This document shows positions 61,744-64,000 of a stretch of DNA of 64,000 nucleotides, in pieces. Origin of the DNA: a virus. Numbering within the stretch: the first letter of the stretch is position 1; each line of letters begins with the position of its first letter. The position numbers were made by a program, and so were the translations under genes. The notes beneath the pieces were generated by a model. It made no database searches. It saw nothing but the letters and a program-made list of their open reading frames with translations, and was not told the origin of the DNA. The stretch spans positions 28,974 through 92,973 of IMG/VR virus record IMGVR_UViG_3300027763_000043; one strand, 5' to 3'.

Positions 61744-61936
61744 GTTTTGAGGTCTTTTGATTATTATACTCCCTTTTCATCGGTCTGTAAAGGTTGGGCC
61801 AAGTATCGTGAATAATTTCTGCGAGTTTATATGGAGTGTGTGAGGATATCATAATAGGGACATTAGAAAGAGGAACACTCCGAATAACTGGAAGAGCAGG
61901 AGGATGAGGAGCATTTTTGTAAGTATTTAACTGCAT
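61730..61936 (-). CDS. Small hypothetical ORF overlapping the endonuclease 3' end
   Basis: ATG 61936 gives 68 residues (MQLNTYKNAPHPPALPVIRS..., HTPYKLAEIIHDTWPNLYRP). It overlaps the endonuclease VII-like gene by 74 bases and the next gene by 14. It might be a conserved gene whose 5' end was displaced or overlapped by the nuclease insertion. An internal start (MISSHTPYKLAEII) is possible. There is no strong ribosome binding site. Confidence 0.45.
   Translation of the reverse strand: MQLNTYKNAPHPPALPVIRSVPLSNVPIMISSHTPYKLAEIIHDTWPNLYRPMKREYNNQKTSKHEQV
61763..61791 (-). promoter_or_regulatory. Near-consensus sigma70 promoter
   Basis: TTTACA (61791-61786), 17 bases, TATAAT (61768-61763) on the minus strand. 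It lies within the 68-residue ORF, 20 bases before ATG 61743. Confidence 0.6.
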
Positions 61937-62426
61937 TGCTTAATGTACTTATATTATCACCAACCAATCCTAACATTCTATTACAATTACTACAAAGTAA
62001 TCCACGAACTTGTCCAGTCTTATGGTCGTGGTCTACATAAAGACTATTACTATCCTTTCTACCATTAGTATTTGGATTAAAACAAATAGCACATACTTCG
62101 TTTTGTTCTTGGAGGATATTTTCATACTGCTCCAATCCAAAATCTTTACCATAGGTATACTTCAACATATAGTCCTTCTTCTCACTATAAGAAGGTCTCT
62201 TATCTTTATAAGTTTCACTATAACAACTCTTACATCTCTTATGTCCTTTGTAGTAATCGGATATTTGTTTTTCTACACTACACTTATTACAGATAATATG
62301 CGTTTTACTGGACCAGTTTTCGGCATAAGTTTTTTCCTCACACCTCAAACACCTCCTACGACCTTCTCTAAAATCAGAAGTAGGAAGTTCTTTGGTGCAA
62401 GTTCTACAAATCTTAGTGGTTCTCAT
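61863..62426 (-). CDS. Endonuclease VII-like free-standing nuclease beside psbA
   Basis: This 187-residue protein has two N-terminal zinc-finger-like CxxC blocks (ICRTCTKELPTSDF, ICNKCSVEKQISDYYKGHKR) and a C-terminal recombination endonuclease VII core: NEVCAICFNPNTNG, LYVDHDHKTGQVRGLLCSNC and NRMLGLVGDN. The His-Asp-His motif and zinc Cys pairs are intact. The Ser/Cys-rich tail (CSSSSCSSSYSECSSF) is unusual and reads through the overlapping ORF. It lies 90 bases after psbA, where phage S-PM2 has the homing nuclease F-CphI (HNH family), so it may target psbA. It has a TATAAATA box at 62448-62455. Confidence 0.82.
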   Translation of the reverse strand: MRTTKICRTCTKELPTSDFREGRRRCLRCEEKTYAENWSSKTHIICNKCSVEKQISDYYKGHKRCKSCYSETYKDKRPSYSEKKDYMLKYTYGKDFGLEQYENILQEQNEVCAICFNPNTNGRKDSNSLYVDHDHKTGQVRGLLCSNCNRMLGLVGDNISTLSNAVKYLQKCSSSSCSSSYSECSSF

Positions 62427-62479: not shown

Positions 62480-62508
62480 AAAAAAAGAGACCTCGTAAAG
62501 AGGTCTCT
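62480..62508 (-). terminator. psbA terminator
   Basis: A 9-bp perfect stem AGAGACCTC/GAGGTCTCT (62486-62494, 62500-62508) with a 5-nt loop is followed on the minus strand by TTTTTT. It lies eight bases after the psbA stop. Confidence 0.88.
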
Positions 62509-62515
62509 AAGGTTA

Positions 62516-64000
62516 TCAACCGATTGCAGGTGCAGTAAGAGCAACTTGAGTTGTCTCAGCAGTAGCAAGGTCTAAAGGAAAGTTATGTGCATTCTTAAAC
62601 TTTTCTTAACTATCTGGTATTACTACCAGGATTGGACTATATCATCACCATTTCTGGTGTCGGACGCTTAAACCTGTTATTAAGGAAACTCTATTCCTCA
62701 GGTAGTCTCTGAACCTTTCTCAGATGTATCTGAGACTTGGCTGCTGATTGTCCCGTAGGATTTCCAGCAATTCATCCGATTTAAAGAGCGCAAAGCACAA
62801 CTTGACGCTCATGCATTACCTCAAGACCAAGACCAGCACGATTAAGAATATCAGCCCAAGTAGGAATTACATTGTTCTGATTATCAACAATAGACTGGTT
62901 GAAATTAAAACCATTGCACTAGACCCATAAGTTTACCATTCTTATGGAGTGGACTATATCTTCATCCCGTAGGATGTCGGACGCTTATTCCTGTTATTAA
63001 GGGAACTCTATCCCTCAGGTAGTCTCTGAACCTTTCTTAGATGTATCTAAGACTTGGCTGCTGATTATCCATTTATGGAGGACTTCCAGCAATTCATCCG
63101 ATGTTTGCCGTTTAATTACTTAAACGGAACCCCAATTGAGGTTAAAAGCCATCGTGGATACACCAAGAGCGGTGAACCAGATACCTACAACCGGCCAAGC
63201 AGCAAGGAAGAAGTGCAGTGAACGTGAGTTATTAAAGGACGCATATTGGAAAATAAGGCGACCAAAATAACCATGAGCAGCAACGATGTTGTATGTCTCT
63301 TCTTCTTGTCCAAACTTATAACCATAATTCTGCGATTCAGTTTCAGTGGTTTCACGAACCAAAGAAGAAGTAACTAAACTTCCGTGCATCGCAGAGAACA
63401 ATGAACCACCGAAGACACCAGCAACTCCAAGCATGTGGAAGGGGTGCATCAGAATGTTATGTTCTGCTTGGAAGACAAGCATATAGTTAAAAGTACCAGA
63501 AATGCCAAGAGGCATAGCATCAGAGAACGATCCTTGTCCGAAAGGATATACCAGGAATACTGCAGAAGCGGCAGCAACGGGTGCTGAGTAAGCAACCATA
63601 ATCCAAGGACGCATACCCAAACGATATGAGAGTTCCCATTCACGACCCATGTAGCAGTAGATGCCAATGAGGAAGTGAAATACAACAAGTTGAAAAGGAC
63701 CACCGTTATACAACCATTCATCTAAGGAAGCAGCTTCCCAGATAGGATAGAAGTGAAGACCAATAGCATTAGAAGAAGGAACAACAGCACCAGAGATGAT
63801 GTTGTTACCGTACATTAATGAACCAGAAACAGGTTCACGAATGCCATCAATGTCCACAGGGGGAGCACCGATGAATGCGATGATAAAGCAAGTGGTTGCA
63901 GCAAGCAACGTTGGAATCATCAGAACACCGAACCAACCAACATAAAGACGGTTATCGGTAGAAGTCACCCAGGAACAAAATTCGTCCCAGGCATTAAAAG
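62516..64000 (-). CDS. psbA: psbA, photosystem II D1 protein, split by two group I introns (5' end outside window)
   Basis: The gene reads from the window edge (about fifteen N-terminal residues missing) as [32 protein letters not shown], the conserved D1 helices and NVVA-type His ligands, ending exon 1 at 63139 (MAFNL). Exon 2 is 62916-62805 ([20 protein letters not shown] through EVMHER, 37 codons plus one base). Exon 3 is 62593-62516 ([20 protein letters not shown] then APAIG and TGA). Joined, the C-terminus is complete, including the processed tail after Ala344. Unspliced, the frame stops at 63120 after three wrong residues. The phage D1 keeps photosynthesis running during infection. Confidence 0.93.
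62594..62804 (-). ncRNA. Group I intron 2 of psbA (211 nt)
   Basis: It starts after GAGCGT (HER) and ends in G before AATGCA. The guide GCGCTC (62791-62786) pairs with GAGCGT giving a U.G at the splice site. P7 strands TTCAGAGACTA (62713-62703) and GATATAGTCC (62643-62634) are present. It has no ORF. The core is nearly the same as in intron 1, with different P9-region and terminal hairpins (CACCA/TGGTG, CTGGTA/TACCAG). Confidence 0.88.
62917..63138 (-). ncRNA. Group I intron 1 of psbA (222 nt)
   Basis: It starts after AACCT and ends in G before CAATGG. The guide GGGTT (63132-63128) pairs with AACCT, again with U.G at the splice site. P7 strands TTCAGAGACTA (63030-63020) and GATATAGTCC (62960-62951) are conserved. 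Terminal hairpins are CATCC/GGATG and CCATAAG/CTTATGG. It has no ORF. S-PM2 psbA is known to carry a single group I intron of about this size. Confidence 0.88.

Follow-up and report, generated by a model that had tools for sequence, protein, structure and literature searches.

Two group I introns in a cyanophage psbA gene, probably spread with the help of a downstream Endonuclease VII-type gene

The window analysed here is a stretch of 64,000 nucleotides (G000:C1:28974-92973) of a viral record of 92,973 bases, and its right edge is the end of the contig. At that edge, on the minus strand, lies a cyanophage psbA gene (62516-64000) whose 5' end is lost. Since the gene runs off the contig, about ten N-terminal codons (by S-PM2 numbering), together with any intron among them, are out of view; we number residues by the window's D1, from which S-PM2 numbering differs by an offset of 10 taken from the S-PM2 coordinates. 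Read unspliced, the D1 frame meets a stop at 63120. Removal of two segments, 62917-63138 (intron 1, 222 nt) and 62594-62804 (intron 2, 211 nt), joins stretches of 862, 112 and 78 nt into a single open D1 frame of 349 residues with a normal D1 C-terminus. Exon 1, cut off at its 5' end, occupies 63139-64000, and intron 1 follows the second base of codon 287 (297 in S-PM2 numbering). Exon 2 spans 62805-62916, intron 2 lies in phase 0 between residues 324 and 325 (334/335 in S-PM2 numbering), which is the site of the S-PM2 intron, and exon 3 with the stop codon spans 62516-62593. Residues near this second site are presumably ligands of the manganese cluster. Both introns are preceded by U and have G as their last base; the boundary of intron 1 can slide over 4 nt with the same spliced message, the given placement being the only one with U before and G last, and the boundary of intron 2 has a single possible placement. 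A first-pass annotation had already claimed the wrongly placed stop, the two excisions, an exon 1 ending two bases into a codon, the lengths of exons 2 and 3, and the U and G at the intron borders, and each of these points agrees with our mapping, the excisions to the exact coordinate.

Just 3' of psbA, on the same strand, reading by eye reveals a terminator-like hairpin, AGAGACCTC-TTTAC-GAGGTCTCT, followed by a T run (62480-62508). Beginning 89 nt after psbA there is a free-standing gene for an endonuclease of 187 aa (61863-62426, minus strand), which Pfam places in the Endonuclease VII family (PF02945, E 2.8e-22). The introns themselves are too short to encode an endonuclease. Some 1.8 kb beyond the Endonuclease VII-type gene, standing alone, is a 123-aa HNH gene (PF14279, PF01844; 59734-60105, minus strand).

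Both segments are group I introns, as supported by the covariance model, guide helices, a P3/P7 pseudoknot, covariation and the continuity of the protein. Against Rfam model RF00028, for which the gathering score is 50, intron 1 matches over 63148-62925 with 90.3 bits (E 8.4e-22) and intron 2 over 62874-62613 with 87.5 bits (E 5.7e-21), each across the full model, and the window holds no other Rfam match at gathering score. We drew the helices by hand on the window introns: P1, P2 (in intron 1 only), P3 to P9 and the P3/P7 pseudoknot. In intron 1, P1 (63128-63143) pairs the exon bases 63143-63139 (AACCU) with 63132-63128 (GGGUU), and P7 (62952-63024) pairs 63024-63020 (GACUA) with 62956-62952 (UAGUC). 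In intron 2, P1 (62786-62810) pairs the exon bases 62810-62805 (GAGCGU) with 62791-62786 (GCGCUC), and P7 (62635-62707) pairs 62707-62703 with 62639-62635. A U.G pair stands at the splice site of both.

For covariation we aligned the distinct introns at each site, 32 at site 287 (the window's included) and 52 at site 324. The U.G pair at the splice site is unvaried in all 32 and all 52 sequences; as our splice finder demanded a U before and a G at the end of each intron, the relatives' agreement at those two letters is built in, while that of the pairing G of the guide is not. All six P1 pairs of intron 2 form in 52 of 52 sequences, and four of the five P1 pairs of intron 1 are kept in 32 of 32, the fifth being unpaired in 22. 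Across the drawn helices, 92.7% of cells are paired at site 287 and 98.0% at site 324, with 25 of 64 and 24 of 55 pairs, respectively, changed on both sides. At site 287 there are 207 cells changed on both sides versus a shuffled mean of 68, and a covariation score of 0.269 versus 0.112; the corresponding values at site 324 are 340 versus 113 and 0.330 versus 0.140. At neither site was compensatory pairing as high in any of 500 shuffles, which ignore relatedness, and sliding the 3' strands by one to three columns reduces pairing to 30-45%. For further pair types the count does not exceed that of shuffles, 499 of 500 being as high at site 287 and 429 of 500 at site 324. The weak helices at site 287 are P7.1 and P7.2, paired in about 76% of cells, and P2, parts of which fail in 21 to 22 of the 32 sequences. 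P7 and P4 are invariant at both sites and thus have no say either way on covariation. The group I assignment with P1 guides and P7 strands, which the first-pass annotation had made together with a proposal for a covariance-model scan, is therefore upheld by the located helices, by the shuffles and by scores far over the gathering score.

The same viral record contains a third group I intron, outside the window, with 63.4 bits (L003:1420-1720, minus strand; G000:C1:10779-10970). By eye it lies inside a tRNA-Leu(UAA)-like gene beside tRNA-Met and tRNA-Ile, and ARAGORN called no tRNA-Leu there. Cultured cyanophages such as S-TIM5 match the two tRNA-Leu ends only, and the intron part is matched in huge uncultured phages.

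Among isolates, S-PM2 and S-RSM88 carry an intron at site 324 alone. They resemble the window in the site and P1 of intron 2 and in the Endonuclease VII-type gene that follows psbA, and window intron 2 is identical to the S-PM2 intron at 200 of 212 positions. The window differs from S-PM2 in having a second intron, 112 nt upstream of intron 2, and in its endonuclease, which at 40% identity over 134 aa is of a different type, one that goes with the upstream site. The isolate S-SRM01 (MW015081.1; psbA at L004:1817-4224) has three psbA introns: one of 910 nt with an HNH gene at 82.0, and two short ones at 240.0 and 324.0. Rfam matches the short pair above threshold but misses the long intron. It shares with the window more than one psbA intron, one of them at the S-PM2 site, and has an F-CphI-like gene downstream; unlike the window, its other introns lie at sites 82 and 240 and its site 287 is empty. 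Its GenBank annotation gives only two psbA fragments, around the first intron, and leaves the two short introns unannotated; the accessible part of the S-SRM01 paper likewise infers a single psbA intron and makes no mention of the two short ones (PMC8557907).

Intron 1 has no such counterpart among the isolates searched. A distant search of 50,697 phage records found no intron like it at its site: of the 12 records matched, seven are entries for S-PM2, S-RSM88 and S-SRM01 with introns at other sites, and five are weaker matches in unrelated phages. It is identical at 218 of 222 positions to the site-287 intron of an uncultured record (L183). Looking for a host source of the site-287 intron, and for this site only, we scanned 84,980 genomes for a D1 motif next to the intron's 3' end, and none of the nine stretches obtained has a psbA match (seven have no hit at all, and two have hits at E 0.58 and 0.74).

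Several introns in one psbA gene, or in one phage gene, have precedents elsewhere. Chlamydomonas chloroplast psbA reportedly has four introns with light-regulated splicing, in an organelle gene and with large introns, and phage Twort is said to have three introns in one gene, with exon skipping. Two or three group I introns per gene are described, in the accessible text of a phage intron survey, for DNA polymerase and terminase genes of Bastillevirinae, with exon skipping in one terminase (PMC11878797). The likeness of Twort and the Bastillevirinae to the window is that several group I introns share one phage gene, but the genes and phages are different ones, and among the window's relatives the number per gene rises to seven and nine rather than two or three.

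To place the window's gene among its relatives, we compiled a census of viral psbA introns from five pattern scans of IMG/VR, 80 D1 relatives and three phage hits, mapped with the dynamic-programming splice finder. In the record count, L137 and L329, which are one contig, were merged, as were same-contig repeats (L401, L406, L412), and the window was left out. At least 163 other psbA records bear introns. Among those listed, 95 have one, 39 two, 19 three and 6 four, and there is one record each with five, six, seven and nine, making 68 with two or more. Many of the records are fragments, so the numbers of introns per gene are minima, and since the census was mostly sought by intron patterns, its counts are not frequencies. 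A rough base rate comes from the best 80 of at least 600 D1 relatives, of which 77 reach the C-terminus: 8 of the 77 genes have introns, 2 of them two, and 69 are intronless, in a sample that required an unbroken first 278 residues and is therefore blind to upstream introns.

The introns occupy the following sites, given as residue and phase: 50.2, 67.2, 82.0, 96.2, 126.0, 157.1, 173.2, 176.1, 180.0, 205.0, 240.0, 287.2, 321.2, 324.0, 326.0 and 327.0, and perhaps 320.2 in one record. No two of sites 324, 326 and 327 are occupied together among the records listed. The search for insertions at the window's two sites, proposed by the first-pass annotation, found site 287 occupied in at least 46 other viral records and site 324 in at least 86, and the two in combination in at least three (L131, L132, L166). 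That annotation had also taken only single psbA introns to be known in cyanophages. This stands for the papers, in that the accessible open-licence literature searched yielded no report of a phage with more than one psbA intron, but not for the sequences, given the three introns of S-SRM01 and the 68 of at least 163 records with two or more.

The most intron-rich gene in the census carries nine introns (L133:6686-11257, also L343; record G001), and removal of the nine segments leaves an intact D1 from ATG to C-terminus. All nine match RF00028, eight of them over the gathering score and one with 48.7 bits (E 3.8e-13). We ran Rfam on 12 multi-intron loci, three phage loci and 10 whole records. 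In the 12 multi-intron loci, 33 of the 38 predicted introns are over the gathering score; the five misses are long introns, two of which matched below threshold in the whole-record scan. The contig of the seven-intron psbA (record G002) also holds a second cluster, in another gene region, of five group I matches, two of them over the cut-off (L344; G002:C1:31500-36500). By eye, the inner modules of the introns (P6a, P7.1/P7.2) occur in few versions across many sites and the 5' and 3' ends are site-specific; intron cores thus look as if they had been shuffled between sites. Several of the intron-bearing loci (L004:1680-1777, L132:1605-1698, L123, L131, L068, L089 and L133) have a PhotoRC-II cis-regulatory RNA (RF01717) ahead of psbA, in a region that the window lacks.

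The gene that follows psbA offers a means of relating introns to endonucleases. F-CphI is the S-PM2 enzyme, and according to the accessible text of PMC6083498 its cutting is blocked by the psbA intron; collaborative homing is also discussed, in the available portion of another paper, for other phages (PMC10448857). The window endonuclease is a distant relative of F-CphI, being neither that enzyme nor of its close type; among phage records none has a best match of at least 60% identity to it. We typed the downstream genes of 190 psbA loci, each spanning residues 270 to 345 with no less than 900 nt beyond the gene (0.9-2.5 kb examined). A type was given by a best match of at least 60% identity, for the one type to the protein of the window, for the other to F-CphI or to the related S-SRM01 protein. 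Left out before these counts were a duplicate (L002), S-RSM88 (L006), a copy of S-PM2 (L265) and the same-contig repeats. Also excluded were 13 seemingly intronless loci with a typed endonuclease, which start at residues 277-324 and had been retrieved through the 3' end of an intron.

Enzyme type goes with intron site. Of 36 genes with an intron at site 287 and none at 324, 22 are followed by the window type, none by the F-CphI type, 3 by a divergent enzyme and 11 by none; of 70 with an intron at 324 and none at 287, 47 are followed by the F-CphI type, 2 by the window type, 7 by a divergent enzyme and 14 by none. The three genes with both introns have the window type twice (the window and L131) and the F-CphI type once (L132). 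Introns at other sites (19 genes) are accompanied by the F-CphI type in one case and by none in 18, and the 62 intronless genes by neither type, 12 having a divergent enzyme and 50 none. The contrast of 22:0 with 2:47 gives a Fisher p of 2e-16, and after dereplication 11:0 with 2:29 gives 1.8e-8, in tests that ignore relatedness beyond the 90% dereplication.

A tree of the endonucleases, which kept 54 of 97 proteins, left 21 of 51 inner branches open and drew a program warning of long branches joining, places the window-type enzymes in one clade with 100/100 support and 11 rows (7 with intron 287, 2 with both, 2 with 324). On the whole tree, the label 287 changes 7 times versus a shuffled mean of 9.4 (7 of 500 shuffles as low) and the label 324 changes 9 times versus 17.9 (0 of 500). 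With this many label changes, site and enzyme must have been re-sorted on several occasions. Two loci, L291 and L294, have a window-type gene and no 287 intron, and in both the target stretch departs from the sequence usual in site-287 genes, strongly so in L294; the L291 target is also common in intronless genes, so these two loci prove nothing. Judged by this typing, the window-type gene and site 287 have the appearance of a second pair engaged in collaborative homing, next to that of F-CphI, and from this association we think it likely that the window-type downstream enzyme acts at the 287 site. In the isolates and the accessible text of the papers that we searched, this site-287 system does not appear.

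Our preferred explanation, which we hold with good though not complete confidence, is that the window's psbA carries two self-removing introns whose spread is aided by the downstream Endonuclease VII-type enzyme. Introns 1 and 2 would each be removed from the psbA transcript in a reaction of its own, leaving a D1 message without interruption. That both splice themselves out is, judging from structure and frame, very probable, and the S-PM2 intron at the site of intron 2 splices during infection, according to the accessible portion of PMC5931967. The free-standing enzyme (61863-62426) would act as a homing endonuclease and spread introns by collaborative homing, cutting intron-free copies of psbA so that repair transfers both the intron and the gene for the endonuclease, while the donor's psbA would be shielded by its intron from the donor's own enzyme. 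This homing role we infer from where the gene lies and from the way in which endonuclease types go with intron sites. By its type, the window enzyme would be the partner of intron 1. Intron 2 would belong to the F-CphI system of S-PM2, the enzyme after the window's psbA not being of the F-CphI type. Two rival endonuclease/intron pairs are likely to be involved, with both sites shielded in the window's psbA. As to how the double allele arose, a one-intron copy may have gained the other intron through a short repair tract, and the product would resist both enzymes; we give somewhat less than even odds to this account, in which the double allele exists because it shields both sites. The pairing has its limits, in that 11 of the 36 site-287 genes have no such enzyme within the 0.9-2.5 kb examined and 3 have a divergent one, and that the 287 + 324 combination is rare, genes with both introns and enough downstream sequence numbering three, the window included.

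There are other possible explanations for the two introns. The first is that they are kept mainly as a regulatory switch, serial splicing setting D1 output, for example by light, with mobility secondary. Any failure of splicing would truncate D1, since retention of intron 1 gives a protein ending WGSV, retention of intron 2 one ending QVVLCAL, and skipping of exon 2 a frameshift (its 112 nt are not divisible by 3). Light-dependent splicing at the site of intron 2 is reported for S-PM2d, in the accessible portion of PMC5931967. Yet 69 of the 77 sampled genes are intronless, albeit in a sample picked for an intact first exon, and the patchy occupancy of 16 to 17 sites, with endonuclease genes accompanying introns, has the look of mobile elements. 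We regard a mainly regulatory role as unlikely.

The second is that introns 1 and 2 are a single intron in two copies, the outcome of duplication or homogenisation inside the gene. In its favour, the inner modules of the window introns are 91% identical, and those of L131 100%, and when site 287 is compared with C-terminal sites in 13 genes, similarity is 0.760 within genes versus 0.723 shuffled (167 of 5000 shuffles as high). These comparisons draw on the 186 of 211 short introns that could be parsed into modules. Over 113 intron pairs in 45 genes, however (those kept, with repeats removed, of 60 with two or more parsed introns), similarity is 0.703 versus 0.711 shuffled, with 866 of 1000 shuffles as high, and pairs over 0.90 number 5 versus 3.4 shuffled (245 of 1000 as high). 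Furthermore, over their whole lengths the window introns share only 167 of 222 positions with each other, which, set against their identities to S-PM2 and L183, puts each in its own site family. Duplication thus seems improbable to us. Concerted evolution of introns within one gene, borderline for site 287 with C-terminal sites and negative over the 113 pairs, is not claimed.

The third is that the gene is dead or its D1 truncated, the downstream pieces being relics, as the stop at 63120 would imply if the transcript went unspliced. Compared with the window, pN/pS for the region before the intron 1 site is 0.096 in 91 intron-bearing genes, 0.089 in the 29 with a 287 intron and 0.078 in 68 intronless genes, and for residues 288-349 it is 0.200, 0.188 and 0.196, respectively (91 near-complete loci being counted of 159 indel-free intron-bearing ones). 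Such similar values with and without introns indicate that the last 62 residues of D1 are under the same constraint. As exons 2 and 3 keep the pN/pS of intronless genes, both intron structures covary, and the spliced frame is open in 70 of 70 multi-intron loci (partly built in, as the mapper penalises stops), we consider a dead gene highly improbable. Least credible of all is an assembly artefact, for although the source is a single assembled metagenome record cut at psbA, the same pair of sites recurs in three other records, an intron stands at each of the two sites in dozens of other records, and the cultured S-SRM01 has three psbA introns.

Returning to collaborative homing, the census allows a broader reading, in which homing endonucleases compete for cyanophage psbA, with at least 16 sites, each with its own group I family, and a build-up of introns to as many as nine driven by shielding; the window would hold introns of two of these systems. 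Each site would often have its own endonuclease, whether GIY-YIG, HNH, probably LAGLIDADG or one of two Endonuclease VII types, and multi-intron alleles would accumulate because every additional intron protects psbA against a further enzyme. Among the intron-borne genes, Pfam matches over curated cut-offs are to GIY-YIG at site 67 and to HNH at sites 82 and 205, with sub-threshold matches to HNH_2 at 173 and 180 and to LAGLIDADG at 50. Reading frames from sites 96, 126, 157 and 176, one each, have no supporting Pfam match, and it is only in our own reading of the letters by eye that they appear HNH-like. On this broader reading we are evenly divided.

The two-intron psbA of the window is a variation on a known theme; the interesting wider pattern is that of a viral gene holding as many as nine introns, with endonucleases matched to their sites. 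Up to nine introns in one phage gene exceeds the two or three per gene in the accessible text of the phage intron survey (PMC11878797). By inference, counts of genes in metagenomes may miss or fragment psbA genes that are split in this way. Viral psbA presumably sustains photosynthesis while infection proceeds, and its interruption therefore touches a widespread ecological process. The natural series of zero to nine introns offers a test of whether introns protect a gene against rival endonucleases, of how similar neighbouring ribozymes avoid exon skipping, and of whether splicing sets D1 output in the light.
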